DNA from: Verrucomicrobiota bacterium
Lineage (GTDB): Bacteria; Verrucomicrobiota; Verrucomicrobiia; Opitutales; Opitutaceae
Direction of reading: 5' to 3'
Assembly: GCA_016222805.1 (NCBI GenBank)
Contig: JACRQG010000038.1
Location: forward strand, 1-33,871
Length of the DNA: 33,871 nucleotides
The position numbers and the translations under genes were made by a program. Each line of letters starts with the position of its first letter. The stretch's first letter is position 1. Shown here in pieces: positions 2,714 through 30,688 of this stretch. The notes beneath the pieces were generated by a model. The model worked only from the letters and a program-made list of their open reading frames with translations. It made no database searches and was not told where the DNA came from.

Positions 2714-2755
2714 CTGACCCCTGATCACCGATTACTGATCACTGTTTACCGAACT
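2714..2755 (+). repeat. Degenerate heptanucleotide tandem repeat (CTGATCA-like)
   Basis: Six consecutive 7-mers read CTGACCC, CTGATCA, CCGATTA, CTGATCA, CTGTTTA, CCGAACT, ending 9 bp before the ATG at 2765. TGATCAC occurs twice exactly 14 bp apart. A shorter run of the same family lies upstream of the aminotransferase gene at the far end of the window. Function is unknown; the base composition is more AT-rich than the surroundings. Confidence 0.6.
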
Positions 2756-2764
2756 TCGATCCCC

Positions 2765-4656: not shown

Positions 4657-4680
4657 TCCGTCGACCGCCCTTTCTTCGCC

Positions 4681-5460: not shown

Positions 5461-5572
5461 GCTGAAACGGTTCCCGGATACCTCCTCGCGCGAGGGTACC
5501 CGCAGTCTGCGCTCCCAGCCAGGCCCGCGCGCCTGGCACTTCTTATCCTCCCGCTTCCCTTCGTCCCACTCC

Positions 5573-6460
5573 ATGAACCTCCGCAGCACCGCCCTCCTTG
5601 TGATCAGTCTCGGCGGCACCTTCGCCGCATCCGCAGCCGAGCCCCAGGTTGTCCCCCTCTGGCCCGACGGCGCGCCGGGCTCAGCCGCGCGCCGGACCGA
5701 ACCGGAGAAGGTCACGGGCACCAATGTCTCCAACATCCATCACCCATCGTTGCTCGTCTACCTTCCGCCTCCTGCGGAATCCACGGGTTGCGCCGTGGTG
5801 GTCGCGCCCGGCGGCGGCCACGCCCGCCTCGCGATTCACCACGAGGGTTACAACGTCGGCACCTGGCTGGCCCGCCACGGCATCGCCGCCTTCATCCTGA
5901 AGTACCGGCTCGCCAAGGACGACGCGACCCCGGCCGGCGCACCCCAACCCTATACCGTCGACCGGGACTCGCTCGCCGATGCCCACCGCGCCCTTCGCCT
6001 CGTCCGGGCCCGCGCCTCCGAATGGCGGGTCAATCCCGCCGCCGTCGGCATCATCGGATTCTCTGCGGGTGGCGAAGTCGCCCTGGTAGCGGCCCTCCAT
6101 GCGCCGCTGCCACCCCAGGGCAGACCGGACGCCATCGACAGCCAGAAGGCACGGCCCGACTTCTACGGACTCATCTACCCCGGCGGCCTTTCGCGCACCG
6201 ATCTCGCCCTCACGAAAGAAGCCCCGCCTGTCTTCCTCACCGCCGGCTATGCGGACCGCCCGAACATCTCGGAGGGGCTCGCCGAGTTCTATCTGAAGAC
6301 CAAACGCGCCGGCGCCACTGCCGAGCCCCATATTTTCGCCGGGGCGGGCCACGGCTTCGGCGTGCGCGAAACCAACCGCGGACCGCAGGCCGAGTGGCTC
6401 GCTCGCTTCCACGAATGGCTGGCCGAACGCAAGTTCCTCGCCGCGGCGCGCGCACGCTGA
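5573..6460 (+). CDS. Secreted alpha/beta-hydrolase, probable carbohydrate esterase
   Basis: 295 residues. The start at 5573 gives a signal peptide (MNLRSTALLVISLGGTFAASA); a longer frame upstream encodes an Arg/Pro-rich leader and is rejected. The domain is a BD-FAE/acetyl-xylan-esterase-like alpha/beta hydrolase. It has an oxyanion-type segment APGGGH near residue 80, the nucleophile elbow GFSAGG with Ser164, a likely acid Asp228 in TAGYADR, and His260 in GAGHGFG. Enzymes of this kind remove acetyl or related esters from plant polysaccharides and often sit in lyase/glycosidase clusters. Here it follows the PL22-like gene and precedes a TonB receptor and a fucosidase, which fits de-esterification of a pectic or other fucosylated glycan. 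The substrate is inferred only. Confidence 0.8.
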   Translation: MNLRSTALLVISLGGTFAASAAEPQVVPLWPDGAPGSAARRTEPEKVTGTNVSNIHHPSLLVYLPPPAESTGCAVVVAPGGGHARLAIHHEGYNVGTWLARHGIAAFILKYRLAKDDATPAGAPQPYTVDRDSLADAHRALRLVRARASEWRVNPAAVGIIGFSAGGEVALVAALHAPLPPQGRPDAIDSQKARPDFYGLIYPGGLSRTDLALTKEAPPVFLTAGYADRPNISEGLAEFYLKTKRAGATAEPHIFAGAGHGFGVRETNRGPQAEWLARFHEWLAERKFLAAARAR

Positions 6461-6736
6461 ACATGCAGCGATAGCTTCCGGACGCTGGCTCGGCGCGGTC
6501 GCCGGCCCCGCCCCATCCCTTCGACGCGCCCAACCGGTGGGGCGCGTGACCTGCCATCGACCTGAAGGGAGACCGGTCGGGGCTTCCAGCGGGCCGGCCG
6601 CACCTCCGCGCCCGGCCCGGCAGTATCCGAGGCCTGGATTCCCGGCGCGGCTTCCGGCCCGAAATCGCCGCCCGGCTTGACAAGCCGGCGTTCCGCGGGT
6701 GCGTTCCGCGCCCCCGTTTCGATCCACCCACCTCCG

Positions 6737-9169
6737 ATGCCCGACCGCCCGAACCGCCTCCGACCCGTTCTTCCGGTGCTTGCCGCCCTGCTGCTCCCGG
6801 CCGGCGGCGCCAGCGCCGCCTCACCAGCCACCACCCCGGCCCCCCGGCCCGTCGTGCTCAGTCCGTTCGAGGTGAAGAGCGCCCAGGACTACGGCTACCG
6901 CGCCGGCGCCGCCGTCACGGGCACCGGCACCGCCGGCCTGATCAAGGACACACCGCTCAACATCAGCATTGTCGCCCAGGAACTGGTGGCCGACCAGTCG
7001 GGCAACCAGCTCGTCGACGTCCTGCGCTCCGCGAGCTCGGTCGCCCTGCACGTCAAGGATGAGAGCATGATTCTCATCCGCGGCTACACCGGACCGCAGT
7101 TTGTCAACGGCCTCCCGGCCGGCCAGGGACTCGCCCTCTACGACATCGACCGGATCGAGGTGGTGAAGGGACCCAACGCCGTCTTCGCCGGCATCTCCAA
7201 TCCGGGCGGCACGGTGAACCTGATCAAGTTCCGGCCCTCCTTCGCCGAGCCGCGCCATTCCCTCGACATCAGCGCCGGCTCCTTCGCGCACCGCCGCGCC
7301 GTCCTGCGCTCCACCGCCCCGGTCCTGCCCGGGCGCCTGGCCTACGCCCTCGTTTACGGCACGACCGACGAGGAGAGTTCGATCGACTCGATGTTCACCC
7401 GGGAGCAGTTTGCCAGCGGCAGCCTGGCCTGGCGTCCGCTTCCGAATCTGACGTTCAGCGCCCGGTACAGTCTTCTCGACCGCGAGGCCGGACGCCGCCC
7501 CCACACCGTGGTCAGTCACCCGCTCTTCCAGGAGCGCGACCGGGAGGCGATCCGGCTCTTCGATCGCCTCGGCCTGCCCCGGCCCGCGAGCTATCCGCAA
7601 CTCGAGAACGGCGCCGTCCGCACCCCCGCCGGCGTGCCCATCACCACCGGCCGGACCGCCCCGGAGGGAGTCGATGCGTTCATCGCCCGCACGCTCGGCG
7701 CCGATGTCCCCCCCTACCCGGGCGTCTACTCGCGGGACTTCTTCCCCGATGATGCGTTCAACTACAACGGTCCCGACGGCCGCGACAACTATCGCAACCA
7801 GAACACCGGCTTCGAGGCCGAGTGGGTGCAGTCGCCTTTCTTCGCCGTCCATGGCCTCTTCCAGCAGGTCGACAGCCACCGCCTCCGGCGCGAGTTCAAC
7901 GGCCTCCGGCCCGTCGCTGGCCAGCGGCTGCGCAGCACGATCTCCGACTTCAAGCCGGGCGGTCTCACCTTCTCCGCCCGCCTCGAGGCGGTCGCCAAGC
8001 TCGACCTCCGCCGCGCCGGCCGGCACGACTTCCTGGCCGGCTTTCAGCACGACGGCGGCAAGGAGGTCATCTCCCCGATCACCGTCGCGACAACGCGCGT
8101 CCACACGTTTGCCCCCGGGGATCGCCCGTTTCCCAGCCTGCTGCAACTCCTGCGCGACCAGTACGGATCGACGTACCATGAACCCGGGGTGATCCGGAAA
8201 GGCGGCAGCCACTCCAACTCCTGGTACGGCGTCGTCCAGTCCTCCTTCCTCGGCGATCGCCTCCGCACGCTCGTCGGCGGTCGCGCCATCGCCAATCACC
8301 GGCCGGTCGACGACAACCGCGACGGCCGCGACGAGGACTTCAAGACCAGCAAGGTCGTGCCGCAGCTCGGCGCCCTTTTCCGCGTCAACCCGCACCTGAG
8401 CCTCTACGGCAGCATTAGCCGCACCTTTGTCCCGCAGCGGCAGCAGACCGCGGATCTGGAGGCCATCCGCGCCAGCCAGGGCGACCCCCTGTCGCCCGGC
8501 TATCGCCCGCCGGCGGTGGTTCCAGTCAAGTTCCTCGCCGCCGACCTCCTGGGTCGCGGTTGGGAAGGGGGCGCGAAGATCGATCTCCGGGACGGCGCGC
8601 TGCTCGGCACCGTCACCTACTTCTCCAACGAGGAATCCTCCAAGCTCGACCTCGACATCGCCAATCAGGTCCTTTTCCAGCTTCCGGGTGCCACCGTGCG
8701 CGTCGCCGCCGGCCGGACCCGCGCGCGCGGGGTCGAGTCCGAGTGGATCTGGACGCCACGGCGCAATTACCAGGCCCTGCTCAGTGCCAGTTACTTCTTC
8801 GAGAAGAACGAACTCTCCAACCCCGCCGAGCGCCGCGAGGTCGGCTCGCATCTCGAATCGGTGCCGCGATACACGGTCAACTTCTGGAACAAGTACACCT
8901 TCACCTCCGGCGCCCTCGATGGCCTCTATGTCGGTGGCGGCGTGAACGTCCTCGGCGAAACCTACATGCACCCGAGCTGGACCATTCCCATCGTCGGCGA
9001 GCGCGTCGTGCTGCTCGACGCCATGGTGGGCTACGCCACCCGTTTCGGGAATCTGCCGGTGAACTTCCGCCTCAACGCGCGCAATCTCGCCGACAAGCAC
9101 TACCTCAACGGCACCTTCCAGTACGGCGAACCCCGCACCCTGATCGCGAGCGTGGGCCTGCAGTTCTGA
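6737..9169 (+). CDS. TonB-dependent outer-membrane receptor
   Basis: 810 residues. The ATG at 6737 gives a Pro-rich signal peptide ending GGASAAS; an alternative start 60 bp upstream adds a non-signal extension. The mature N-terminus has VVLSPFEVKSAQDYGY, the signature seen in many verrucomicrobial TonB receptors. A plug domain follows (KDTPLNISIVAQELVADQ, ILIRGY, IDRIEVVKGPNAVFAG, NPGGTVNLIK), then a 22-strand-type barrel ending in NLADKHYLNGTFQYGEPRTLIASVGLQF-type strands with a terminal Phe. It imports a ligand across the outer membrane using TonB energy. No SusD partner is adjacent, as is usual outside Bacteroidetes. The lyase, esterase and GH95 neighbours suggest an oligosaccharide, though a siderophore or cobalamin cannot be excluded. 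No cobalamin-riboswitch consensus was seen in the 276 bp upstream. Confidence 0.9.
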   Translation: MPDRPNRLRPVLPVLAALLLPAGGASAASPATTPAPRPVVLSPFEVKSAQDYGYRAGAAVTGTGTAGLIKDTPLNISIVAQELVADQSGNQLVDVLRSASSVALHVKDESMILIRGYTGPQFVNGLPAGQGLALYDIDRIEVVKGPNAVFAGISNPGGTVNLIKFRPSFAEPRHSLDISAGSFAHRRAVLRSTAPVLPGRLAYALVYGTTDEESSIDSMFTREQFASGSLAWRPLPNLTFSARYSLLDREAGRRPHTVVSHPLFQERDREAIRLFDRLGLPRPASYPQLENGAVRTPAGVPITTGRTAPEGVDAFIARTLGADVPPYPGVYSRDFFPDDAFNYNGPDGRDNYRNQNTGFEAEWVQSPFFAVHGLFQQVDSHRLRREFNGLRPVAGQRLRSTISDFKPGGLTFSARLEAVAKLDLRRAGRHDFLAGFQHDGGKEVISPITVATTRVHTFAPGDRPFPSLLQLLRDQYGSTYHEPGVIRKGGSHSNSWYGVVQSSFLGDRLRTLVGGRAIANHRPVDDNRDGRDEDFKTSKVVPQLGALFRVNPHLSLYGSISRTFVPQRQQTADLEAIRASQGDPLSPGYRPPAVVPVKFLAADLLGRGWEGGAKIDLRDGALLGTVTYFSNEESSKLDLDIANQVLFQLPGATVRVAAGRTRARGVESEWIWTPRRNYQALLSASYFFEKNELSNPAERREVGSHLESVPRYTVNFWNKYTFTSGALDGLYVGGGVNVLGETYMHPSWTIPIVGERVVLLDAMVGYATRFGNLPVNFRLNARNLADKHYLNGTFQYGEPRTLIASVGLQF

Positions 9170-9258
9170 GGGGTTGATCGCGCCGCAATCGCCGGCGGCG
9201 CCCGGGCCTGCTGCCGTGGTTGCCTCTGCCTGGAGCCCCGCCCATGCTCCACGGCACC

Positions 9259-11661
9259 ATGCTGCGTTTCATCGCTCCGCTCCTTTCCTGCCTGCTGATT
9301 CCAGTCGCGCTGGCCGCCCCTGAACACCTGCTCCGCTACGATCAGCCTGCCCGGAAGTGGGTTGAGGCCCTTCCGCTCGGCAACGGCCGGCTCGGTGCCA
9401 TGGTCTTTGGCGGCACCGCCAGCGAACGGCTCCAGTTGAACGAGGCCACCCTCTGGTCGGGAGGCCCGCGCGAATGGAACAACCCCGGCGCCCGCGCCAT
9501 CCTGCCCAAGGTCCGCGCCGCCGTCTTTGCCGGCCGCTACCAGGAGGCCGGGGAACTCTGCAAGCAGATGCAGGGCCCGTACACCGAGTCGTATCAGCCG
9601 CTCGGTGACCTGCGGCTCGACTTCGGTTTTGCCACCCCGGTCACCGGGTACGAGCGCACCCTCGACCTGGATCGCGCCGTCGCCACCACCCGCTTCAAGG
9701 TCGGTGACGCCACCATCACCCGGGAGGTCTTCGTCTCCGCTCCGGACCAGGTGATCGTGGTGCAACTGGGCACCGATCGCCCGGGATCCCTGTCGTTCCT
9801 GGCCACCCTCGACTCCCTCCTGCAGCACGAGTCGCCCGGAGTCGGCGGGGCCGCGCTCGTCCTCCGGGGCCGGGCGCCCTCACACGTCGATCCCAACTAC
9901 ATCCGCAACACCCCGCAGCCCGTCCGTTACGACGACGGCGGCGGCATGCGGTTCGAGATCCATCTGGAAGCCGTGGTCGACGGTGGCACGGTCAAGGGCG
10001 AAGCCGCGGCCCTGCGCATCGAGCGTGCCCATCGCGTCACGCTGCTGCTCACGGCCGCCACGAGCTTCAACGGCTACGACCAGCCGCCCGCCCGACCGGG
10101 ACGCGATGCCGCCGCGCTGGCCCGGGCCGCCCTCACCGCCGCGCGGGCGCGGCCCTACGCCGACCTCCTCGCCCGGCACCTCGCCGACCACCAGGCGCTC
10201 TACCGCCGCGTGTCGCTCGACCTCGGCGACACCCCGGAGGTCGGCCCGCTGTCCACGATCGCGCGGCTCACGCGCTTCGCGAAGGGCGCGGCCGACCCCG
10301 GGCTCGCCACGCTGCTCTTCAACTACGGCCGGTACTTGCTCATCGCCAGTTCCCGCCCCGGCGGCCAGCCGGCCAATCTCCAGGGGATCTGGAACGACCT
10401 CATCCGTCCGCCGTGGAGCAGCAACTACACGATCAACATCAACACGCAGATGAACTACTGGCCGGCCGAGGTGGCCAACCTCGCCGAGTGCCACCAGCCG
10501 TTGCTCCAGTTTGTCGCCGAACTTGCCGCCAACGGACGCCGCACCGCCGAGGTCAACTACGGCGCCCGCGGCTGGGTTTCCCATCACAACTCCGATTTGT
10601 GGCGCCATTCGGCCCCGGTGGGCGACGGCTCCGGCAATCCCGTCTGGGCCAACTACGCCCTCAGCGGTCCCTGGCTCTGCCAGCATCTCTGGGAACACTA
10701 CGCCTTCGGCGGCGACCGCGAGTTTCTCCGCCAGGCCTGGCCCGTGCTCAAGGGTGCGGCGGAGTTCTGCCTCGACTGGCTCGTCGAGGACGGCCACGGC
10801 CACCTGGTCACTGCCCCCGCCGCCTCGCCGGAGGTCGGTTTCATCACCCCCGACGGCGTCCGCGGAGTCGTCACCCATGCGACCACGATGGATCTCTCGA
10901 TTATCTGGGAGCACTTAACCAACACCATCGCCGCCGCCCGTGAACTGGGCATCGAAGCCGACTTCGCCTCGCGGATCGAGACGGCGCGCGCCCGCCTGCT
11001 GCCCTTGCGCATCGGGAAACGTGGCAACCTCCAGGAGTGGGCGGAGGACTTCCTCGAACAGGAAGTGCACCATCGCCACGTGTCGCACCTCTTCGGGCTG
11101 CACCCGGGCCGACAGATCACCCCGGCCACGCCGGAGATCTTCGCCGCCGCGCGCCGTGCCCTGGAACTCCGGGGCGACGATGGCACCGGCTGGTCGCTGG
11201 GCTGGAAGGTCAACTTCTGGGCCCGCTTCCATGACGGTGACCGGGCCCACCTCCTCGTTCGCAACCTGCTCCGCCCCGTGGGCCTCGACGACGGCGTCCG
11301 TTACGGACCCGGCGGCGGTGTGTACCCGAATCTCTTCGACGCCCATCCTCCCTTCCAGATCGACGGCAACTTTGCGTTTACCGCAGGTCTCTGCGAACTG
11401 CTCCTGCAAAGCCACCTCGGGGAACTGCACCTGCTCCCGGCCCTCCCTTCCGCCTGGCCGACCGGCCACGTCCGGGGCCTTCGCGGCCGGGGCGGCTTCG
11501 AGATCGACCTTGCCTGGCGCGACGGCGCGCTGCAGGAGGCGACGATCCGCTCCCGGCTGGGAAGGCAGCTCCCGGTCCGGTACGGTTCGCACACCACTTC
11601 CCTGACCCTTCCGGCCGGCGGCTCGGCGTCCTTCGGGCCGGGGCTCACGCGCCGGGACTGA
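9259..11661 (+). CDS. GH95 alpha-L-fucosidase (or alpha-L-galactosidase), secreted
   Basis: 800 residues from the ATG at 9259, which begins a good signal peptide ([20 protein letters not shown]). An ATG 15 bp earlier is also possible. The order matches GH95: an N-terminal beta-sandwich ([24 protein letters not shown] type opening, [10 protein letters not shown]), a helical linker, an (alpha/alpha)6 barrel with the strongly conserved [13 protein letters not shown], and a C-terminal sandwich. Asn393 and Asn395 in the NIN motif correspond to the Asn pair that activates water in the Bifidobacterium enzyme. Glu525 (SPEVGF) is a candidate general acid and Asp702 (QIDGNF) the conserved Asp. These enzymes invert and release L-fucose, or L-galactose in some members, from glycan ends. 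The 89 bp gap after the TonB receptor suggests co-transcription. Confidence 0.9.
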
Positions 11662-11757: not shown

Positions 11758-14700
11758 ATGCGCCCCTTCTCCCGCCTGTCGCAGCTTGTCCGACGCGGTG
11801 CGCTCGTGCCGTTGCTGGCCACCGCCGCCCTGCGCGCCGATCCGGTCATCTCCGAGTTTCTCGCAATTAACGACACGGGTCTGGTCGACAACGATGGCCG
11901 CCGATCGGACTGGATCGAGATCCGCAATCCCGACCCGGTGCCGGTGAACCTCGAAGGCTGGTACCTCACCGACAACGCCGCCAACAAGGACAAGTGGAAG
12001 TTCCCCGCGGTCACGATTCCCCCCGACGGTTATCTTGTCGTCTACGCCTCCAACCAGAACCGCCGCGATCCGGCGAAGCCACTGCACACCAACTTCGTGC
12101 TGGAGGGTTCCGGTGAATACCTGGCGCTCGTGAAGCCCGACGGCTCCACCGTGGCGAGCGAGTTTGCCCCGGCCTTTCCGGAGCAGTTCGCCGACATCTC
12201 GTACGGTCTGACCTCTCCCCGCACGGCGGGCGAGACGGCCCGGACCGGCTTCTTCCGCACGCCGACACCGGGTGCCCGCAATGGCGACGCGGCCTCCCTC
12301 CTCCTGCTGGAGAAGGTGACCTTCTCCCGCGCGCCGGGCACGTTCACCGGCACCATCACCGTCAGCCTGGCAGGCGCCGCGGCCGGGCAGCGGATCCGCT
12401 ACGTCCTCGGGGCGCCGGCCGCCGCCGGTACTGCGGTGGCCGAGCCGACGGCGGCGTCGCCGGCGTACACCGGTCCACTGACGGTCAGTTCGTCCGTGGT
12501 CATCCGCGCCGCGGTGTTTTCCGACACCGATGCCCAGCGCGGTCTCTCCACATCGGCGCAGTATGTGCGCCTCGCCAATTCGGGCACGACCCGGGTCGAC
12601 ACCTTTGCCAGCCAGCTTCCCCTTCTGGTCATCGACACCCACGGCACCGGCGCGCTGGAGAAGGAGAGCGGCGAGAAGCCCGCCTGGATCTACGCGTGGA
12701 ACCGGCCGTCGTCCGGCAACACCACCCTTGTCACCGCCCCGGCCGTCGCCAGCCGCGGTTCCGCCAATGTGCGCGGCTCCTCCTCGTCCGAGTTTCCGAA
12801 GAAAAGTTACACCGTCCGGTTTACCGATGCCAACGGCGAGGCCTCCCCGGTCGGGATCTTCGGCCTGCCGCCGTTCTCCTCGTGGGCGTTGATCGGTCCC
12901 TGGGCCTTCGATCGCACCTACCTGCACAACGTCTTCACCTATGAACTGAGCAACCGTCTCGGCCGCTGGGCCCCGCGGACGCAGTTGGTCGAGGTCTTCC
13001 TGAATGCCAACGGGGGCAACCTCGATACCGCCGACTACCTCGGCCTCTACATCCTCACCGACCGCCTGGAAGTCGACCCCCAGCGCGTGAAACTCACCGC
13101 ACTCGAGACTAACGACACGGGCGACAAATCCATCACCGGCGGCTACCTCCTGAAACTGGATGTGCCGGACGCCGACGAGTTCAGCTTCCGGACCTCGCGC
13201 AACTACCCGCCGATTCCCTCGCAAATCTGCCTCGCCTCCCCCAAGGCCGCCGACCTCGCCCCCTCCCAACGCAGCTACATCCAGGGCTACATCCAAGCCT
13301 TGGAGGATGCGCTCCACGCCGATCAGGCGACGGGCTTCCAGCAGCGCACGCACCTCGACTACATCGACCGCGCCTCGTGGGTGGACCACCATCTCCTCAA
13401 CGTCCTCACCGAGAACGTCGATGCCTTCTTCCGCAGCGCCTCCTTTACCAAGGACCGTCTCGGCCGCATGGTAGCAGGGTCGATCTGGGACAACGACCGC
13501 TCGATGCATGGCGGCGACGATCGCTCGCAAACCCCGGAGGAATGGAACGGCGGAGGCGGCGCCACGGACCTCTGGAACTTCGGCTGGTGGGGCATCATCG
13601 CCCGCGATCCCGACTACCTCCAGGCGTGGATTGACCGCTGGCAGTCGCTGCGCGCGACCGAGCTCGCCACCCCCGCCCTGCTCGCCCTCGTCGACGCGTC
13701 CGCCGGCAAGATCGGTGCCGCCGCAGCTGCGCGCGACGCCGCCCGGTGGCCCAACGACGTCGCCGGCCAGGGCAACACCCCGCGCTTTCCCGGTGCCTGG
13801 CAGGGAGAGGTCGACAACCTGAAGTCCTGGCTCACGCGCCGGGTCGCGTGGATCGACACCCAGTTCACCGCCCGTCCGATCGTCACGCGGGCCGCCGGAC
13901 AGGTCACCCTCACCCCGGCACCGGGAACCCAGCTGGCCTACACCCTGGATGGCACCGATCCCCGCGGCGCCAGCGGACGCCTCTCTTTCGCCGCCCGGGT
14001 AACGTCCGCGCCCGTGACCATTACCGAGACTGTCGACGTCCAGGCGCGCGGCTACCAAGCCAATGTCCCGCCCAACCGTTTCCCCGCCAGTGCGTGGAGC
14101 GGACCGGTCGGAGGCCCCAAATCCTCGGCGCTGGCTCCCGCGGTCCGGCTCGCCAACCTCTCCAGCCGCGGATTCGTCGGGGCTGGAGAGAACATCCTGA
14201 TCGCGGGGGTGGCGGTCAACGACACAGCGGGAAAGACCTACCTCGCCCGCGCAGTCGGCCCGGCGCTGGGCGCCTTCGGCATCGGCAACGCCCTGGCCGC
14301 ACCGATCCTCCGCATCGTCGATTCCGCCGGGCGGGAGGTGGCGCGCAACGCCGGTTGGGATTCCGGCAATGATGGTGACGAGATCGCCGATCTCGCGAAA
14401 TCCGTCGGGGCCTTTCCCTTCGAGAAGAAGAGCCGCGATGCCGCGTTGCTCACCCGCCTGCCGTACGGTCAGTACACCCTGCAGATCTCCAGTTCCACGA
14501 GCGCGACCGGGGTGGCGCTCGCGGAGCTCTACGAGGCCGACGCCAACACCGGGCGCACGGTCAACCTCTCGACGCGCGGCAGCGTGCGGGCGGGCGAAGG
14601 ACTCCTGATTGGAGGGGTGGTCGTCAGCGGCCCCGGCCCGAAGCGGCTGTTGATTCGCGCCGTCGGTCCGACGCTCGAGATGTTTGGAGTCGGATCGACG

Positions 14701-14961
14701 CTGCCCGATCCCGTGCTCACCCTTTTCTCCGGTTCGACAGTCGTGGCGCGCAATGACGACTGGAGCGCCACCGCGGCCAACGCCCCGACCGGGAGCGAGG
14801 TCGCCTCCGCCGCCAGCACCGTGGGCGCCTTTGCCCTGCCGGCCGCCAGCCGCGACTCCGCGCTGCTCCTCACGGTCGCTCCCGGAGCCTACACCGTGCA
14901 GGTCGAAGGCAAGGCCAACGCCGAGGGCGTGATCCTCTTCGAAATCTACGAAGTGCCATAG
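11758..14961 (+). CDS. Secreted CotH-kinase protein with lamin-tail and C-terminal repeats
   Basis: 1067 residues. The ATG at 11758 gives a signal peptide (MRPFSRLSQLVRR then a hydrophobic core). Domain order by eye: lamin-tail fold about 27-150 (SDWIEIRNPDPVPVNLEGWYL type); a chitobiase-C-like sandwich about 180-280; a CotH kinase region about 285-650 with GSANVRGSSSSEFPKKSY, YLGLYILTDRLEVD, GGYLLKLDVPD, ENVDAFFRSASFTKD and SIWDNDRSM (Asp578/Asp580); a second chitobiase-C-like sandwich (QLAYTLDGTDPRG) about 705-790; then two roughly 135-residue repeats from 797 and 933. CotH of Bacillus is an atypical protein kinase that phosphorylates spore-coat proteins, and the WDND Asp matches its metal-binding Asp. 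This is therefore a candidate extracellular kinase. Its C-terminal repeats match those of the phytase-like protein downstream, tying the two into one surface system. Confidence 0.85.
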   Translation: MRPFSRLSQLVRRGALVPLLATAALRADPVISEFLAINDTGLVDNDGRRSDWIEIRNPDPVPVNLEGWYLTDNAANKDKWKFPAVTIPPDGYLVVYASNQNRRDPAKPLHTNFVLEGSGEYLALVKPDGSTVASEFAPAFPEQFADISYGLTSPRTAGETARTGFFRTPTPGARNGDAASLLLLEKVTFSRAPGTFTGTITVSLAGAAAGQRIRYVLGAPAAAGTAVAEPTAASPAYTGPLTVSSSVVIRAAVFSDTDAQRGLSTSAQYVRLANSGTTRVDTFASQLPLLVIDTHGTGALEKESGEKPAWIYAWNRPSSGNTTLVTAPAVASRGSANVRGSSSSEFPKKSYTVRFTDANGEASPVGIFGLPPFSSWALIGPWAFDRTYLHNVFTYELSNRLGRWAPRTQLVEVFLNANGGNLDTADYLGLYILTDRLEVDPQRVKLTALETNDTGDKSITGGYLLKLDVPDADEFSFRTSRNYPPIPSQICLASPKAADLAPSQRSYIQGYIQALEDALHADQATGFQQRTHLDYIDRASWVDHHLLNVLTENVDAFFRSASFTKDRLGRMVAGSIWDNDRSMHGGDDRSQTPEEWNGGGGATDLWNFGWWGIIARDPDYLQAWIDRWQSLRATELATPALLALVDASAGKIGAAAAARDAARWPNDVAGQGNTPRFPGAWQGEVDNLKSWLTRRVAWIDTQFTARPIVTRAAGQVTLTPAPGTQLAYTLDGTDPRGASGRLSFAARVTSAPVTITETVDVQARGYQANVPPNRFPASAWSGPVGGPKSSALAPAVRLANLSSRGFVGAGENILIAGVAVNDTAGKTYLARAVGPALGAFGIGNALAAPILRIVDSAGREVARNAGWDSGNDGDEIADLAKSVGAFPFEKKSRDAALLTRLPYGQYTLQISSSTSATGVALAELYEADANTGRTVNLSTRGSVRAGEGLLIGGVVVSGPGPKRLLIRAVGPTLEMFGVGSTLPDPVLTLFSGSTVVARNDDWSATAANAPTGSEVASAASTVGAFALPAASRDSALLLTVAPGAYTVQVEGKANAEGVILFEIYEVP

Positions 14962-15052
14962 CGTTCGCTCCGCTTCTGTCGTACCCTCCGGGAACGCTCG
15001 ACACGCTCCCTGGCCGCTTTTTCTTCCTGCCGCGGTGCGTTCATCGCCGATC

Positions 15053-16363
15053 ATGAACTCGGTCCTCCTCGAACTTTCCCTCATCCTGATTCTGCTCCTC
15101 GCCAACGGGGTCTTTTCCATGGCCGAAATCGCCATCGTCTCCGCCCGCAAGGCGCGACTCCGCCAACTGGCCACGGATGGCGACGACCGGGCGCGCCTGG
15201 CCCTCGCGCTGGCCGAGTCGCCCAACACGTTCCTCGCCACCGTCCAGGTGGGAATCACCCTCGTGGGTGTCCTGACCGCGGCGTTCAGCGGGTCTTCGAT
15301 CGCGAGCCGGCTCTCCGTGTTGTTGCAGGGCATTCCCGGGCTGGCTCCGTACGCCGACCAGATCGCCTTCGGAGTCGTGGTCGTGGTCCTCACCTACTTC
15401 ACCCTGGTGATTGGCGAACTCCTGCCAAAACGCATCGGCCTCGGCAATCCCGAGGGGGTCGCCAGCCTGCTCGCCGGCCCGATGGACAAACTCGCGCGGG
15501 CCAGCGCTCCCCTGGTCTTCCTGCTCGGCCGTTCCACCGATGCCCTGCTCCGCCTGTTCCGCGTGAAACCGGAAGCCGAGCTCAAGGTGACCGAGGAGGA
15601 GGTGCGGCTGCTGGTCCGGGAGGGCATGCGGGCGGGGGTCTTTCACCCGCAGGAACCGGCGATGATCGAGGGCGTGATGGCGTTTGACCGCCGGCCCGTG
15701 CGGGACCTGATGACCCCTCGGGCGAAGATCATCTGGATCAACGTCAACGATCCCCATGAGGTCATCTGGCACCGCATCGTCGTCAGCGCCCACACCACGT
15801 TCCCGGTTTACGAAGGGAAACGCGACAACGTGCTGGGTTTTGTCACCGTCAAGGCAATCTACGCCAACCTGGCCGCCGGAGTTCCGATCCGGGTCCGCGA
15901 TCTCACCACTCCCGCGCTGATCGTCCCGGCCTCGCTGACCACCAGCGCGCTCCTGGAGAAATTCAAGGCCACAGGCCGGCACGTCGCCCTCGTCTCGGAC
16001 GAGTTCGGCGCGATCGTCGGCCTCATTTCCCTGCATGATCTCATGGAGGCCATCGTCGGCGAAATTCCTTCACCGAGCGATCGCCTGAAGCCCAAGGCCG
16101 TCCGCCGCGACGACGGCTCGTGGCTCGTCGATGGCATGCTGGGGGTTGCCGAGTTCGAACACGCCGTGCAGGACTTTCCGCTGCACCCGGCGACCGAACG
16201 GGATTATGAGACGTTTGGAGGTTTCGTCATGAAGCACCTCGGCCATGTGCCGAACGAAGGCGAGACCTTCTCCCACCACGGCTACCACGTGGAGATCATC
16301 GATCTCGACGGACACCGCGTGGACAAGGTCCTGCTTATTCCCCACACGAAGCGTACCGCCTGA
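15053..16363 (+). CDS. CNNM/HlyC-CorC family membrane protein with CBS pair
   Basis: 436 residues. The start is set at 15053 (MNSVLLELSLILILLLANG), so that the first transmembrane helix follows immediately. The order is an N-terminal DUF21/CNNM membrane domain of three to four helices (residues 1-180, with FSMAEIAIVSARKARL and LVIGELLPKRIGL), a two-CBS regulatory module beginning VRDLMTPRAKIIWIN and containing FPVYEGKRDNVLGFVTVK and VALVSDEFGAIVGLISLHDLMEAI, and a CorC_HlyC domain to the C-terminus. Family members are annotated as haemolysins, but the better supported role is Mg2+/Co2+ export or homeostasis, with the CBS pair binding adenine nucleotide. It sits between the CotH gene and the convergent HlyD/DUF4956/VTC operon. 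Whether it belongs to that system or is a bystander cannot be decided from sequence. Confidence 0.9.
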   Translation: MNSVLLELSLILILLLANGVFSMAEIAIVSARKARLRQLATDGDDRARLALALAESPNTFLATVQVGITLVGVLTAAFSGSSIASRLSVLLQGIPGLAPYADQIAFGVVVVVLTYFTLVIGELLPKRIGLGNPEGVASLLAGPMDKLARASAPLVFLLGRSTDALLRLFRVKPEAELKVTEEEVRLLVREGMRAGVFHPQEPAMIEGVMAFDRRPVRDLMTPRAKIIWINVNDPHEVIWHRIVVSAHTTFPVYEGKRDNVLGFVTVKAIYANLAAGVPIRVRDLTTPALIVPASLTTSALLEKFKATGRHVALVSDEFGAIVGLISLHDLMEAIVGEIPSPSDRLKPKAVRRDDGSWLVDGMLGVAEFEHAVQDFPLHPATERDYETFGGFVMKHLGHVPNEGETFSHHGYHVEIIDLDGHRVDKVLLIPHTKRTA

Positions 16364-16430
16364 GGTTCCCGGAGCGGTCCCCCCGTAGCCTGTCGCCCAG
16401 GCTTCGCAGGGAAAATCCTCCGTACTCCGG

Positions 16431-16458
16431 CAGCGCGGTTCCTGAGGGAACCGCGCTG
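16431..16458. terminator. Strong hairpin between convergent genes
   Basis: A perfect 12-bp inverted repeat, CAGCGCGGTTCC / GGAACCGCGCTG, encloses the tetraloop TGAG. It lies between the stop of the CBS-domain gene and the stop of the oppositely directed HlyD-like gene. A smaller stem, AGCCTG / CAGGCT (16387-16392 / 16398-16403), lies just upstream. Position and symmetry suit a bidirectional terminator, though neither side has a T-run. A dispersed palindromic repeat is the alternative. Confidence 0.55.
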
Positions 16459-16537
16459 TGGTCTCCCTCGTCGCGGCGCTCCAGTGCGGCCACGCCAGAC
16501 CGACTGCCGCCACGCCAGGGTCGACTCCGACGCTGAC

Positions 16538-17644
16538 CTACGGCACGAGGACGTCCACGAATTCCCCCGGCTTCACGACGAAGCCCTCCGGGATCGCGAT
16601 TTGGATCCGCAGCCCGGGTTCGGGCAGCGGGGCCGGGGGCAGCCGCATCGCCGCCACGATTGACGGGGTGAGCGTCTCCATCCCGGCGCCGACGTTCAGG
16701 ATCGCCGCGCGCGCCGATTGTCGGCTCCCCGCGCGAGAACGAATCTCCACCGGCATGCCAACCTTTGGCTCAAAGGGCAGCGGCTGCCGCATGAAGCCGC
16801 TGAGACGATCCGGCTTTTTCGCGGTGATCCGCAGGATCGGTTCCCCTGCCACCACCGCTTCCCCCGTGCGCCGGAAGACTGCCGCCACCACCCCGGCGAT
16901 GGGCGACACCAGTGGCACCGGAGTGAGTTGTTGCTCGGCCAGCTTCAGCTTGGCGTCCTGTACCTTGATCGCCGTCGCCAGCGCGGAGTCCGGCGACGTG
17001 GCCGCGCCTCCCTCCCCGACGCCGGCGAAGCTCCGGATCGCCGGTTCAAGCCGAGCCACGAGCTTGGTCTGCTCCGCCACCTGCTCCACCAGCGAATCGC
17101 GAACGGCCTTCAACTGCGCAAAGTTCTCCTCCGAGACCACCCCGGAACGGTGCAGGGGCGTCATCCGATCGAGGTCCCCTTCCGCGACCTGCAATTTGCC
17201 GCGCAGCGCCGCCAATTCCACACGGGCGGTCATCCACTCCACCTGCAAGCGCTCGAACTCGAGCGCCACCCGGAGCCGATCCGTCGCCCCCGCCATGGTT
17301 GAGGAAAGCATCCCGACCTCGGCCCGGATGACCGCGAGGGTGGCCTCGAGCAGCTTCGGATCCACCGTCGCCACGTGGCCGAGCACCTCGTTGGCCTGCA
17401 CCTCCTGGAAGGCGGCGACCTTCAGCCCCAGCAGCGTCCCGGCCTGCGCCGACCGCACCTCCGCCTGGACCGCCTCCGCCTCGGCCACGATGGTCGCGGG
17501 GGCCACCCAGCGGGACCACAGCAGCACCACTCCGACCACGCCGAGGGCGAAGACCGTGCGTGGCAGGTACAGGAGCCGTACTTCACGCCAGCGCTGGGCG
17601 GGAGGGACCGGAATCGGGGGCAGGGGCGCTTGATCGTCTGGCAT
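16538..17644 (-). CDS. HlyD-like membrane-fusion / periplasmic adaptor protein
   Basis: 368 residues. A short cytoplasmic N-terminus is followed by one membrane helix (about 29-48, TVFALGVVGVVLLWSRWVAP). The first half-lipoyl segment comes next (EVRSAQAGTLLGLKVAAFQEVQ), then long helical hairpin segments rich in Ala/Glu/Leu (about 85-230). The second half-lipoyl follows (VPLVSPIAGVVAAVFRRTGE with GEAVVAGEPIL), and then a beta-barrel part ending PGEFVDVLVP. Such adaptors link an inner-membrane partner to envelope export or act as scaffolds. No ABC or RND pump gene is adjacent. Instead it is the last gene of a minus-strand operon, 3 bp after the DUF4956 stop. The likely membrane partner is therefore the DUF4956 protein, which would be an unusual pairing. 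Confidence 0.85.
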   Translation of the reverse strand: MPDDQAPLPPIPVPPAQRWREVRLLYLPRTVFALGVVGVVLLWSRWVAPATIVAEAEAVQAEVRSAQAGTLLGLKVAAFQEVQANEVLGHVATVDPKLLEATLAVIRAEVGMLSSTMAGATDRLRVALEFERLQVEWMTARVELAALRGKLQVAEGDLDRMTPLHRSGVVSEENFAQLKAVRDSLVEQVAEQTKLVARLEPAIRSFAGVGEGGAATSPDSALATAIKVQDAKLKLAEQQLTPVPLVSPIAGVVAAVFRRTGEAVVAGEPILRITAKKPDRLSGFMRQPLPFEPKVGMPVEIRSRAGSRQSARAAILNVGAGMETLTPSIVAAMRLPPAPLPEPGLRIQIAIPEGFVVKPGEFVDVLVP

Positions 17645-17647
17645 GGT

Positions 17648-18331
17648 TCAGATCTCCGATTCGTCGGCTGCCTGCACACTTGAAACCCGCTCGACGCCCG
17701 GCAGCGCCGCGAGTTCCTGCAGCATCTCCGCCGCCCGCGCCGGATTGCGTAGCAGGAGCCGGTAGGAAAGGTCGATACCCTCGACGCCCTGGCCAAAGTG
17801 CTGGTTGGCCACGTGCACCCGCAGGCAGTGCCGCTGCAGCAACCGCGCCAGCGCCCCCATCTCCCCCGCCGGCCGCATCCACTTCACATTGAGGATCAGG
17901 TCGAATCGGTGGCGGGTTCCCGAGGCGGTCGCCCACAGGAAGATGAACAGCGCCCCCAGCACCACACACCCGACCACCGCCGAGGAGAATTTCTGCGTGC
18001 CGCAGGCCGTCCCGAGGATGATCGAGGCCAGGACGTAGCACGTGTCGAGGGTGTCCCGAAGCACGTTGCGGAACCGCACCACGGCGAAGACTGCAATCAG
18101 GCCGAACGCGGTGATCAGGTTGTTCGACATCACCATCAGCACGAGGGCGACGAGGACCGGCAGCACCACCAGCGAGACGACATACGACCGCGAATACGAC
18201 ACCCCCGAGTGGGTGAACACATACACCCAGGCGATCGCCTGCCCACAAAGGTAGGACAGCAGCAGCGCCAGCAGGAGGGCCTGGAAACTGGTCGGCGCCA
18301 GGCCATAGTCGCCTTGGAGGAGGGCGTTCAT
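17648..18331 (-). CDS. DUF4956 polytopic membrane protein
   Basis: 227 residues. The ATG at 18331 overlaps the VTC stop codon by 4 bp, which favours this start over a longer frame. Membrane segments are visible at about 17-38, 50-70, 72-88, 98-113 and 115-135. Between the third and fourth lies the conserved AVVRFRNVLRDTLDTCYVLASI stretch (charged Arg/Asp in the membrane-proximal region), characteristic of DUF4956. The C-terminal 90 residues are soluble and ferredoxin-like in pattern (LRVHVANQHFGQG, AAEMLQELAALPGVERVSSVQ), resembling the ACT-like tail also seen in MgtC/YhiD-type proteins. The function is unknown. As I recall, DUF4956 genes recur next to VTC-domain and CotH genes in other bacteria, which is the arrangement seen here. 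It could be a channel or anchor for the polymerase. Confidence 0.85.
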   Translation of the reverse strand: MNALLQGDYGLAPTSFQALLLALLLSYLCGQAIAWVYVFTHSGVSYSRSYVVSLVVLPVLVALVLMVMSNNLITAFGLIAVFAVVRFRNVLRDTLDTCYVLASIILGTACGTQKFSSAVVGCVVLGALFIFLWATASGTRHRFDLILNVKWMRPAGEMGALARLLQRHCLRVHVANQHFGQGVEGIDLSYRLLLRNPARAAEMLQELAALPGVERVSSVQAADESEI

Positions 18332-19182
18332 TGACGGTTGGGACCCAGAGCACCGCGCAAAGCGGCGGAATTGTCGAGCCAAGGCGCGCTGGTCAGCGTG
18401 TTCGTGATCGCGCTGCCCCATTCGAAGCCGGTCATCCGCCGGGCCACCTTGTGCACCCCCAGAATCTCCACGCCGCGCACATACTTGGCCGCCCCGCAGC
18501 TCTTCAGCTCAAAGCCGCGGACCATCTCGATCATCCACATGGGCATCCGATCCGTGAACTTGAGTTCAAGGATCACCACGCCCCCGAACACCTCCACCGG
18601 ATTGGTCATCCGGGCGCTGAGGATCCCGCTGAACTCCGGCTCGATCCGCACCGCCCGATCGATCGTCACCCGGACGTTGCCCTTGCCGGGACTCACGTAG
18701 GCCTCGCGCAAATACGCGTTGTGGGCCCGCGGAGCGGCCTCCAGCTTCTCGACCAACTGCCAGAAATCGAGCAGATCGACCCACTGCTGGCCGCTCTCCG
18801 CATAGAGGAACTCCCGGCGCGGCGGCTCGCCCAGGAGCAAGGCCTTCACCGCATCGCGCTTCACCCGCGCCCGCTGCTTCACGATGCCCTCGCTCAGCCG
18901 CCGCTTGATCTCAAAGAAGACCGGTGAAAGCGGGTCATCGTCATAGTAGCGGATGCGCAGCTTGAACCGGTTGCGCTCGCCGTCGTTGGCCGCGTGAAAC
19001 GTCCGCAGGTGATTCGAGTCCAGATACAGCGTGTGGACTTCGTACGAGTTGTTCGGCTTCCCCTCCGCATTCTCGTCCGGCAGCAGGTAACACTGCACGA
19101 AGGCCCTCACCGCCATCGCCTTGTTCTCGTCGATGATGTACTTGATCTCACGACGCTGGCGTTGGGCGCGGTCGATTTTCAT
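18328..19182 (-). CDS. VTC-domain protein, candidate polyphosphate polymerase
   Basis: 284 residues from ATG 19182; ATG 19212 (10 codons more) is also possible, and the longer frame to 19551 is a shadow extension. It is the bacterial form of the VTC domain (CYTH/triphosphate-tunnel relative). In yeast Vtc4 this domain makes polyphosphate from ATP inside a basic tunnel. The key pattern is complete: REIKYIID with Lys14, YLDS, RFKLRIRYYD (Arg72, Lys74, Arg76, Arg78), FFEIKRR (Glu91, Lys93), VKQRARVKR, VRVTIDRAVRIEP, VILELKF with Glu206 as likely metal ligand and Lys208, and Lys233 in CGAAKYVRG. The protein has no membrane segment, so membrane targeting would come from the DUF4956 product, translated from an overlapping ATGA. 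Polymer synthesis is predicted from the motifs and not shown. Confidence 0.85.
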   Translation of the reverse strand: MKIDRAQRQRREIKYIIDENKAMAVRAFVQCYLLPDENAEGKPNNSYEVHTLYLDSNHLRTFHAANDGERNRFKLRIRYYDDDPLSPVFFEIKRRLSEGIVKQRARVKRDAVKALLLGEPPRREFLYAESGQQWVDLLDFWQLVEKLEAAPRAHNAYLREAYVSPGKGNVRVTIDRAVRIEPEFSGILSARMTNPVEVFGGVVILELKFTDRMPMWMIEMVRGFELKSCGAAKYVRGVEILGVHKVARRMTGFEWGSAITNTLTSAPWLDNSAALRGALGPNRQ

Positions 19183-19303
19183 TCCGGAGGGGGCGACGTT
19201 CCTTCTCTCCATGACACCGGACACGCAACAGCAAAACGCGCGCCACTGGGCCCGCGCAAATCGCGTCGACTCTCCCGCCCTCCGCCGCCAGAACCTCCCG
19301 CCG

Positions 19304-21865
19304 ATGTCCTTTTTCCGCCTGCCCACGATTCTGGTGACCGGCCTCGCCGTCGGGGCGATCGGCGCCGTTCCCGCCCGGGGACAGACGGCGACTCTGGGCG
19401 GGGTGACCTTCACCAACCAGGGACTCGTGGGCGTCGGTCGCGTGCCCGCCTCGCAGCGGGATCGCCTCAACGAGACCTTTGGTTCGCTCTCCGGACTCGC
19501 CCTCGACGTCCGCACGTGGCGCCGCTCCCCGGACGGCACGTACTCCGGCACCCTCTATTCCCAGCCCGACCGGGGCTACGTGAAATCCGGGGTCACGACC
19601 AACTATCGCCCGCGCCTCCACCAACTCGCCTTCACCTTCGCCCCCGCCCCGGCGGGTTCGACGAGCCAGACGCAGGCCAGGTTCTCGCTGAACGACACGG
19701 TGCTGTTCGCGGAGGCCAACGGCACGCCGCTGACCTCCCTCGATCCTTCCCCCACGGTCTCGGGAGTGCGCACCGGCTTCCCTCCCCTCCCGCAGGCCTA
19801 CAACGGTCGCCTCTCCCTCGACGCCGAAGGGCTGGCCCGCCTGCCCGATGGCACGTTCTTCGTCAGCGACGAATATGGCCCCTACCTCCACCGGTTCTCC
19901 GCGGCCGGTGTGCTCCTCCAATCGATCCGTCCACCGGAGGCGTTCGTTCCCAAGCGCAACACCCGCGACTCGTTTTCCTCCGACAATCCGGCCAAGGACC
20001 AGCCTTCGCCCTCGCCGTCGGAACCCGCCGTCGGACGCGAGAACAACCAGGGTTTCGAAGGGCTCACCCTTTCTCCCGACGGCACGACCCTCTACGCCCT
20101 GATGCAATCCGCCCTCCGGCAGGACGGGGGCGAGGACGGCAACTCCCTGCGGCGCTACACGCGCCTGGTGGGCTATGACATCAGCAACCCGGCGGCTCCG
20201 GTGCTGCGCAGCGAGTGGATTCTGCCGCTTCCGCTCTACCTCGATGGCACCACGCAACAAGTCGCGTCGGTGGGGGACTTCGTCGCTCTGAACGGGCGTC
20301 AGTTCCTGGTCCTGGTCCGCGACGGCATTGGCCGCGGAGCCGACCGTACCGCTTCCCAGTACCGACGGGTGCTCGTCTACGACGTCGCGGGGGCGACCAA
20401 CCTGGCCGGCTCCACGTTCGACAACCCCAATTTCCCCGCCGCGCCCAAGGGGGTGCTGGCCGGCAGCATCGTTCCGGCCACGTCCACCGTGTTGATCGAC
20501 CTCAACGACTCCGCCCAGCTGTCCAAGTTCGGGCTCAACAATGGACCGTCGGACAACTCCAACACGCTGTCGGAAAAATGGGAGAGCCTGGCGCTGGCCC
20601 CCACCCTCGATCCAGCGGCGCCCGACGATTTCTTCCTCCTCGTCGGCAACGACAACGACTACTCGACCACCGACGGCCGCCAGGATGGCGACAACTACCG
20701 CGCGGACCTCAACATCGACACCATGGTCCTGGTCTACCGCCTGACGCTGCCCGGCACCGGAACCGCGACCGCCCCCGCAATCCTGACCCAGCCCGGCAGT
20801 CTCCACGTCAGCACCGGAGGCGCCGCCTCGTTCAGCGTCGTGGCGAATGCGGGCGGCGGAGCCCTCACGTACCAGTGGAAACGAAGCGGTGAAGCAATCC
20901 CGGGAGCCACGCTGTCACTGCTCGCGCTGACCAACGTCCGCGCCGCCGACATGGGCTTCTACACGGTCTCCGTCACGTCGCGCGTCGGCACGATTGAGTC
21001 CACGCCCGCCATCCTCACCGTCGCCACGGGAACCACCAGCCGGCTGGCGAACGTTTCGACGCGCGGATTGGTCCGCGCCGGCGAGGCGCTGACCCCGGGT
21101 TTTGTCCTGAAGGGCAATGGCACCAAGTCGCTGCTGATCCGCGCGATTGGGCCGACGCTGGGAGCCTTCGGCGTGGCCGGAGCCCTGGCGGACCCGCGGC
21201 TGGAGGTCATCCGCTTCGGCGAGTCATCGCCGTTCACTGCCAACGACGACTGGGTCGTCGGACAAGCCCTTCGCGATGCCTTTGCCGCCGTCGGAGCGTT
21301 TGCCCTGCCGTCCACCGGGTCCAAAGATGCGGCGCTGCTGGCTTCGGTCTCCTCCACCGGCGGCACCGGCTACACCGTGCGCATCACCGCGACCAGTGCG
21401 TCCGCCACGGGCATTGCGCTCGCCGAAGTCTACGATACCGAATCGCCCTCGACCCCGGTGCGGTTGGCCAACGTCTCCACGCTCGGATTTGCCGGGATCG
21501 GCGCCGAGGGCCTGACTCCGGGCTTCGTGATCGACGGCACCGCGCCCAAACTCGTGCTAATCCGCGTGGTGGGCCCCGGCCTGGCGGCGTTCGGAGTTAC
21601 CGGCGCCCTCGCCGACCCCCAACTCGCCGTGGTCCCGCTCGGCTTTCCCCAGGTCATCGCCTCCAACAATGACTGGGGGGATGGCGGCCAGGCGGTCGCG
21701 CTGCAATCGGCGTTCAGTGCGGCCGCCGCGTTCGCCCTGCCCTCCGGCAGTAAGGACGCCGCGGTCCTGCTTCGCCTGCCCCCGGGCGGTTTCACCGTCC
21801 AGGCCAGCGGCGCCAACGCGAGCACCGGCACCGCCTTGGTCGAGGTCTACGACTTGGATCCGTAG
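19304..21865 (+). CDS. Secreted esterase-like-phytase protein with Ig and C-terminal repeats
   Basis: 853 residues. The ATG at 19304 gives a signal peptide (MSFFRLPTILVTGLAVGAIG... PARGQ). About residues 28-485 form an 'esterase-like activity of phytase' propeller (PF13449 type), with DAEGLARLPDGTFFVSDEYG, NNQGFEGLTLSPDGTTLYAL, and EKWESLALAP followed by FLLVGNDNDY. An Ig-like domain follows (about 490-575, LTYQWKRSGEAIPGA, DMGFYTVSVTS). Two C-terminal repeats begin at 580 and 720 with RLANVST. The family is linked to phosphomonoester hydrolysis by name and distant homology, but substrates are mostly unknown. It is divergent from the VTC gene across 121 bp. Its C-terminal repeats match those of the CotH protein, so it is likely delivered to the same place and may remove phosphate groups or cleave a phosphorylated polymer. 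Confidence 0.85.
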   Translation: MSFFRLPTILVTGLAVGAIGAVPARGQTATLGGVTFTNQGLVGVGRVPASQRDRLNETFGSLSGLALDVRTWRRSPDGTYSGTLYSQPDRGYVKSGVTTNYRPRLHQLAFTFAPAPAGSTSQTQARFSLNDTVLFAEANGTPLTSLDPSPTVSGVRTGFPPLPQAYNGRLSLDAEGLARLPDGTFFVSDEYGPYLHRFSAAGVLLQSIRPPEAFVPKRNTRDSFSSDNPAKDQPSPSPSEPAVGRENNQGFEGLTLSPDGTTLYALMQSALRQDGGEDGNSLRRYTRLVGYDISNPAAPVLRSEWILPLPLYLDGTTQQVASVGDFVALNGRQFLVLVRDGIGRGADRTASQYRRVLVYDVAGATNLAGSTFDNPNFPAAPKGVLAGSIVPATSTVLIDLNDSAQLSKFGLNNGPSDNSNTLSEKWESLALAPTLDPAAPDDFFLLVGNDNDYSTTDGRQDGDNYRADLNIDTMVLVYRLTLPGTGTATAPAILTQPGSLHVSTGGAASFSVVANAGGGALTYQWKRSGEAIPGATLSLLALTNVRAADMGFYTVSVTSRVGTIESTPAILTVATGTTSRLANVSTRGLVRAGEALTPGFVLKGNGTKSLLIRAIGPTLGAFGVAGALADPRLEVIRFGESSPFTANDDWVVGQALRDAFAAVGAFALPSTGSKDAALLASVSSTGGTGYTVRITATSASATGIALAEVYDTESPSTPVRLANVSTLGFAGIGAEGLTPGFVIDGTAPKLVLIRVVGPGLAAFGVTGALADPQLAVVPLGFPQVIASNNDWGDGGQAVALQSAFSAAAAFALPSGSKDAAVLLRLPPGGFTVQASGANASTGTALVEVYDLDP

Positions 21866-30422: not shown

Positions 30423-30688
30423 GTCCGCCACCGCCCCGGTTCCCGCCCGGCGGCCGCCCAGTGGTGGCGACGTATCCATTCTTCGATGACATAGAGGGAC
30501 GGCGCGGCCGGAGCCTCCGGCGGTAAGTAACCACCGTCCCGTCGCGGCGTTTCGGGCCGGCTACGCAATCCTACCCAAGCCCGGTGTGCGTTTCCCGCGC
30601 GCCCACACACTGGACGCCACGGTGGCGGCCGGTTTTTCCTCAACGCCGTCACCACCCACCTTTCGTTCCAAGGTTCCCACTGTCACCC

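Follow-up and report, generated by a model that had tools for sequence, protein, structure and literature searches.

A VTC–DUF4956–HlyD gene unit recurrent in Verrucomicrobiota and a candidate route for polyphosphate export

Gram-positive pel clusters carry genes for CotH, poly-phosphate polymerase and DUF4956 proteins, and the portion of the paper that describes them names no adaptor (PMC7112168). The authors of a study on S. intermedius state, in the sections available from their paper, that they did not find the three-gene arrangement outside the Pel locus (PMC12345266). In Clostridium perfringens NELoc-2, VTC genes occur that are each followed by a gene annotated tubulin/FtsZ and then by a CotH gene, as far as the excerpt of the report goes (PMC2879425). 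The yeast VTC complex couples polyphosphate synthesis to translocation via a channel lined by basic residues, with the vacuole as destination, and the complex with R264A/R266A/E426N is catalytically impaired, according to the extract of PMC9911596. In tripartite systems as described, the inner-membrane transporter is of the ABC, RND or MFS type, the MFS-type systems usually borrowing their outer-membrane component (OMF), and the accessible text of that source mentions no polyphosphate, DUF4956 or MgtC (PMC8277102). The Gram-positive set of CotH, polyphosphate polymerase and DUF4956 is, in short, already published. A literature search, with preprints absent and few subscription papers covered, gave no report of this set with an adaptor and outer-membrane parts, a negative that carries little weight at such coverage; it returned nothing relevant on bacterial VTC with HlyD, on polyphosphate export or on Verrucomicrobia with VTC and, for CotH with polyphosphate as donor, no mention of CotH among the 10 papers listed of 145.

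The window locus and its second copy

The window, by which we mean the whole analysed stretch of 33,871 nucleotides, is contig C24 of a 7.9 Mb genome and contains the following genes at and around its VTC gene.

11758..14961, plus strand: LTD-CotH kinase-domain protein (Pfam: PF08757 CotH 128 bits, LTD 59 bits), convergent with the operon
15035..16363, plus strand: CNNM/CorC-family membrane protein (PF01595, 160 bits), between the CotH and HlyD genes
16538..17644, minus strand: HlyD/EmrA-like predicted periplasmic adaptor, 368 aa (HlyD_3 21.9 bits; family profile matches EmrA)
17648..18331, minus strand: DUF4956 membrane protein, 227 aa (PF16316, 43.6 bits)
18328..19182, minus strand: VTC-domain protein, predicted polyphosphate polymerase, 284 aa (PF09359, 123 bits)
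19304..21865, plus strand: PF13449 phytase-like protein (PF13449, 133 bits)

On the minus strand an ATGA at 18331-18328 is common to the stop of the VTC gene and the start of the DUF4956 gene, giving a 4-bp overlap, and 3 bp separate DUF4956 from HlyD; the VTC and PF13449 genes are divergent, with 121 bp between the chosen starts. Inspection of their N-termini predicts the CotH and PF13449 proteins to be secreted. An earlier note on this DNA had listed the CotH gene, a minus-strand VTC/DUF4956/HlyD-like operon and the divergent PF13449 gene, all of which are confirmed by Pfam and by the coordinates; Pfam and NCBIfam add the CNNM/CorC-type gene between CotH and HlyD, which that list lacked. We considered this gene as a part of the system and rejected it, its own profile matching the window only among the 62 loci surveyed below. 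At the syntenic locus of another genome (L011, in G160), CotH and HlyD abut with no CNNM gene between them.

Two further regions of the window may be recorded. Positions 2660-11661 hold oligogalacturonate-lyase-like, esterase-like, TonB-dependent receptor and GH95 genes and are probably a glycan-utilisation region, and positions 30584-33285 hold bacterial sugar transferase, Gfo/Idh/MocA oxidoreductase and hexapeptide-repeat genes that form the start of a polysaccharide cluster, some 11 kb from the VTC operon.

VTC and DUF4956 each have two matches in the window genome. At its second unit (L003), an LTD-CotH gene (CotH 33 bits), VTC, DUF4956 and HlyD lie on one strand, a further CotH gene (137 bits) is divergent, and no PF13449 gene is found beside VTC. 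Only two proteins of this genome match the HlyD profile strongly, at 373 and 351 bits and both by VTC; the next match reaches 89.6 bits. The DUF4956 tree places the window with L011 and the second unit with L037, and because these pairs are separate we do not regard the two copies as the outcome of a recent duplication.

The VTC, DUF4956, HlyD and CotH proteins

When compared with the PDB, a profile built from 22 VTC sequences has Vtc4 as its nearest match (1e-23), ahead of Vtc2 and Vtc3. In the alignment of these sequences with 8i6v, the columns of K200, R264, R266, E279, K281, K294, Y359, R361, D377, E426, K428 and K458 (Vtc4 numbering) are invariant and those of R296 and R373 are at least 90% conserved; that the aligned Vtc4 residues are the catalytic ones is in part our own assumption. 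Retention of the Vtc4 active-site residues, on which the earlier note had staked its polyphosphate reading, is upheld by alignment, not by superposition. In the 284-aa window protein the VTC domain is all that Pfam finds, and no segment of the protein is hydrophobic over the threshold used. We predict the protein to be a Vtc4-type polyphosphate polymerase. The bacterial VTC domain might instead be some other tunnel-fold enzyme, for instance a triphosphatase, and polymerase activity is indeed a prediction for the VTC members used here; this we judge very unlikely, however, given that the best PDB match is the catalytic Vtc4 and that conservation holds for all Vtc4 residues that were checked. 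Of the 57 VTC genomes of our survey, 46 also have PPK1, among them the window genome, and this coexistence makes a role for VTC other than ordinary storage plausible.

The DUF4956 protein of the window has four hydrophobic segments, and among 26 diverse members of the family Y36 and R85-F86-R87 are invariant. Weak similarity to MgtC is seen in 15 of these 26 (E up to 5, best 1.9e-4), the window protein showing none, and agrees with the naming of an MgtC-type domain in S. intermedius SIR_1592 in the sections available from PMC12345266. Against PDB sequences DUF4956 gives two chance-level matches only. The protein may act as a channel. A table in PMC10434189 lists a B. thetaiotaomicron DUF4956 gene alongside one for DUF2490.

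The window HlyD protein stands close to the Pfam cut-offs (HlyD_3 21.9 bits, cut-off 22.2; Biotin_lipoyl 22.8 bits, cut-off 22.1) and scores 54.7 bits with the NCBIfam EmrA/EmrK model, whose cut-off is 390.8, while the 25-sequence profile of its family matches EmrA (4tko) in the PDB at 5.5e-31. It has an N-terminal hydrophobic segment at 22-40 and a second stretch, 239-257, that is also over threshold. For CotH, a 16-sequence profile matches 5jd9 at 4.5e-37; the whole window protein, searched against the PDB by phmmer, found no chain. The Asp of NxD and the Asp of WDxD are present in at least 90% of the 16 sequences and lie 23 residues apart in the window protein, as in 5jd9; we take these signature residues to be D228 and D251.

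Neighbourhoods across the phylum and in monoderm bacteria

We sampled 288 genomes of the phylum in the broad sense (Lentisphaerae, Kiritimatiellae, Verrucomicrobia), and PF09359 was found in 57 of them. Sixty fetched stretches, together with the window and its sister unit, make up 62 loci with 63 VTC units; these take in 63 of the 69 VTC match rows, those left out being two pieces in G056, the matches of G074 and G233 and the second matches of G107 and G136. DUF4956 lies at most 4 kb from VTC in 60 of the 63 units, on the same strand in all 60, and is missing from L006, L024 and L055, two of which have VTC at a contig end. HlyD lies at most 4 kb from VTC in 34 of the 63 units, again on the same strand each time (34/34), and the order VTC, DUF4956, HlyD with gaps of at most 500 bases occurs in 34 of the 62 loci, that is, in every HlyD-bearing unit. 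HlyD as a recurrent partner of VTC-DUF4956, as claimed in the earlier note, is thus borne out, and conservation of the neighbourhood in related genomes, which had been set beforehand as the check that could refute the claim, is found in these 34 loci. With the ordered trio in 34 of 62 loci and a second such unit in the window genome, the neighbourhood is more than chance. Two of the genes, phytase-like and CNNM, do resemble local companions, as they would in a chance neighbourhood of unrelated genes, but the second copy and the recurrence across the phylum refute that explanation for VTC-DUF4956-HlyD, and we accord it next to no probability.

At 1e-40 the 25-sequence HlyD profile is positive in 34 of the 288 genomes, comprising 33 of the 57 VTC genomes and one of the 231 others (G242, with the match at a contig start). 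As the profile was made from VTC-linked proteins, presence in VTC genomes is to be expected, and it is the near absence elsewhere that is informative. For the same reason, and with relatedness ignored and seven candidates scored per genome, the hypergeometric value of 9e-27 is unusable as a test. The scan misses the broken-up HlyD of G032 and finds in G177 a second match of the subfamily away from the VTC unit. Profile counts throughout this survey ignore relatedness, some contigs end close to the unit, and since the studied loci themselves supplied the seeds of the HlyD and OMF profiles, part of the linkage arises by construction.

On the DUF4956 tree the HlyD label changes three times, compared to a mean of 21.2 for shuffled labels, so that presence or absence of HlyD in a unit goes with the DUF4956 lineage; two main groups are seen. 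The HlyD-less unit L034 (G148) sits inside the HlyD clade of this tree, and an HlyD of the subfamily is encoded on another contig of its genome. A divergent VTC-DUF4956 group (L051, L052 and L059-L065) has CotH after DUF4956 on the same strand and neither HlyD nor OMF. One genome, G206, carries three VTC units of differing architecture, the first (L007) with a TPR-like gene and CotH downstream, the second (L020) with HlyD and the third (L022) with CotH upstream.

Clustering of the neighbour genes yielded recurrent families directly after HlyD or DUF4956, among them the OEP/TolC-like family PF02321 and a second family that has no Pfam match and merges with the first on iteration. An 18-sequence OMF profile matches OprJ, SilC, OprM and TolC in the PDB (best 5e-17). 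OMF is linked to 21 of the 34 HlyD units versus none of the 29 others and is next in order after HlyD in 20 of the 21, lying on the other strand in L038. Porin_O_P, by contrast, is linked to six of the 29 HlyD-less units and to none of the 34 HlyD units; its matches are modest (33-37 bits in three members scanned) and its profile found no PDB chain. The remaining 23 of the 63 units, some of them at contig ends, are without HlyD, OMF and Porin_O_P, and 17 of these have CotH. No linked OMF is found at either unit of the window genome, which has PF02321 matches elsewhere, a situation that OMF borrowing of the kind known from MFS-type systems would fit.

We also examined GTDB relatives, taking the best 80 of 334 by likeness to an HlyD-type DUF4956 query, so that the counts (VTC 79, HlyD 77, OMF 62 and CotH 18, with the trio in order in 75 and all four genes in order in 57) describe this selection and 77 of 80 is not a prevalence. 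They are not additive to those of the 60 fetched loci either, as the two sets overlap, with 22 contigs apparently common. All four genes (VTC, DUF4956, HlyD and OMF) are present in Pontiella sulfatireligans F21 (L115); HlyD and OMF lie upstream of VTC in L090, and L071 and L074 have no HlyD although the contig runs on.

With an OMF gene so often following HlyD, the envelope coupling proposed in the earlier note gains strength and now reads as a possible trans-envelope conduit. VTC and DUF4956 might rather feed a periplasmic polyphosphate pool, with HlyD as a mere scaffold and the OMF gene serving another pump. Yeast VTC, which puts polyphosphate into the vacuole as far as the extract of PMC9911596 describes it, offers a parallel to such a pool, and 13 of the 34 HlyD units are without linked OMF; against this stand the link of OMF to 21 of 34 HlyD units versus none of 29 others and its ordered place in 57 of the best 80 (of 334) GTDB loci, which leave the periplasmic pool improbable in our estimation. 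For comparison, four monoderm records (three Bacillota and one Actinomycetota) were retrieved from a plasmid collection by tblastn of VTC. In these 13-15 kb stretches the same profiles find VTC in 4/4, DUF4956 in 4/4 and CotH in 3/4, and HlyD and OMF in 0/4 each. Four loci are a small set; the missing HlyD and OMF are what one would expect if the extra parts serve outer-membrane crossing.

A CotH profile made from the window alone found two loci; the counts given here come from a second profile, seeded with 18 places that Pfam confirmed. CotH appears in 26 of the 62 loci, where the CotH densities of the individual genomes would predict 1.0; density derives from Pfam matches, observation from our own profile, and loci are taken as independent. 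CotH is therefore a real neighbour of VTC, as had been supposed. It is linked to 10 of 34 HlyD units and to 17 of the 23 units with neither HlyD nor Porin_O_P, but to none of the six Porin_O_P units. This ties it to VTC-DUF4956 as such and not to the adaptor; a pairing of CotH with HlyD does not prove to be the rule. We regard CotH as a frequent neighbour and, possibly, as a partner of the operon.

The neighbours also bear on a reading in which the unit is an accessory module of a surface polysaccharide, VTC/DUF4956 making polyphosphate or a signal that would regulate or energise polysaccharide export and HlyD/OMF carrying the polysaccharide or a small molecule instead of polyphosphate. The Gram-positive set adjoins pel genes in the clusters that PMC7112168 describes in the portion available, and S. 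intermedius mutants in SIR_1592 and SIR_1594 have changed Pel levels and reduced aggregation according to the available sections of PMC12345266, where SIR_1592 (an MgtC/ACT-type membrane protein) is taken by us for the DUF4956 gene and SIR_1594 is CotH. The loci of Planococcus and Pseudobutyrivibrio include glycosyltransferases, three loci of the phylum have a DegT aminotransferase family of a type found in sugar pathways, and sugar genes lie 11 kb from the window operon. The families that adjoin HlyD or DUF4956 are, however, OMF, Porin_O_P and CotH, and no glycosyltransferase is among the eight families scanned of the 14 neighbour families found in at least three loci; the polysaccharide reading, though the foremost of the alternatives, seems to us unlikely.

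PF13449 is found beside VTC in two of the 57 VTC genomes, namely the window genome and G160, where the arrangement resembles that of the window, and not at the second unit. The phytase-like gene is accordingly a local companion and not core, and its proposal as a part of the system falls. The earlier note had held the locus to be more than the Gram-positive VTC/DUF4956/CotH set on account of two additions; the HlyD subunit stands as such (34/63 units) and the phytase-like partner does not. A C-terminal repeat of ~130 aa that has no Pfam family occurs in the window CotH protein (14155-14958), in the phytase-like protein (21026-21856) and in the LTD-CotH protein of the second unit. We rejected it as a functional link between the CotH and phytase-like proteins, since at least 150 matches occur genome-wide in the window genome (150 of 224 candidates scored), often several per protein; it is a genome-wide surface or sorting repeat.

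Polyphosphate export and comparison with known systems

What is read from sequence here, that is, the families, the active-site residues, the recurrent gene order, the adaptor/OMF linkage and the coexistence with PPK1, would be most economically explained by a VTC-DUF4956 module in a form proper to diderms, with polyphosphate exported via adaptor and duct. On balance we favour such a synthesis-coupled polyphosphate exporter of diderm bacteria, made up of VTC, DUF4956, adaptor and outer-membrane duct; the enzymatic activity, the channel role of DUF4956, the assembly, the direction of transport, the substrate of the duct and any role of CotH are what we infer. Cytosolic VTC would polymerise phosphate from nucleotide triphosphate, and the chain would be threaded through an inner-membrane oligomer of DUF4956, much as happens in yeast, where Vtc4 supplies the Vtc1/3/4 channel. 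From there the EmrA-like HlyD adaptor would bridge the periplasm to an efflux duct in the outer membrane, which is encoded adjacently in many relatives and, in the case of the window, is presumably borrowed from another place in its genome. Surface or released polyphosphate could then act as a polyanion or as a phosphate reserve. Against this reading speak the missing OMF link at both units of the window genome and in 13 of the 34 HlyD units, the 23 units that have none of HlyD, OMF and Porin_O_P, the modest Porin_O_P matches, the seeding of the profiles from these loci and the fact that no energy source besides polymerisation is apparent. One may go further and think of trans-envelope machines of a kind not yet described, where the polymerase itself powers polyphosphate export through DUF4956 channel, adaptor and duct and the exported polyphosphate is the phosphoryl source for extracellular CotH kinases, ATP being scarce there, a proposal that we regard as improbable.

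Polyphosphate at the surface of bacteria and outside their cells is a known phenomenon. Its export route is, to our knowledge, unsettled, and a conserved operon with a polyphosphate polymerase, an adaptor and an outer-membrane duct makes the question directly testable; the operon likewise gives DUF4956 a concrete hypothesis.

Compared with EmrAB-TolC tripartite efflux, the likeness resides in the EmrA-like adaptor and, in many relatives, in an OprJ/TolC-like OMF, whereas DUF4956 and a polymerase take the place of the ABC, RND or MFS transporter. Such an inner-membrane transporter was sought and found neither among the 25 window ORFs scanned nor among the scanned families directly after HlyD, and because it is the defining component we do not file the unit under tripartite efflux. 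An ABC ATPase family occurs in three loci, outside the operon. In L015 (12424-15871), HlyD is followed by another HlyD-type match and by MacB, which probably belong to a MacAB-type pump of their own.

NELoc-2 of C. perfringens is resembled in gene order by the Planococcus locus L146, which has DUF4956, and we consider that CP4_0461 and CP4_0464, annotated as tubulin/FtsZ GTPases in the excerpt of PMC2879425, occupy the DUF4956 place and are probably misnamed. NELoc-2 differs from the diderm units in being monoderm, and that excerpt names no adaptor or OMF for it. With the Gram-positive pel accessory set, the window and its second unit share VTC, DUF4956 and CotH side by side, to which many diderm units add an EmrA-like adaptor, often with OMF, or else have a Porin_O_P gene; a Pfam scan of 25 window ORFs finds no Pel family. 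In contrast to the restriction to the Pel locus reported in the available sections of PMC12345266, VTC, DUF4956 and CotH share a neighbourhood in the window, in its second unit and in other loci. The eukaryotic VTC complex (Vtc1/Vtc3/Vtc4), finally, has in common with the unit a cytosolic tunnel polymerase, predicted as such here, with the same active-site residues and a membrane partner, but that partner is here DUF4956, and in many units genes for an adaptor and an outer-membrane duct are added to it.
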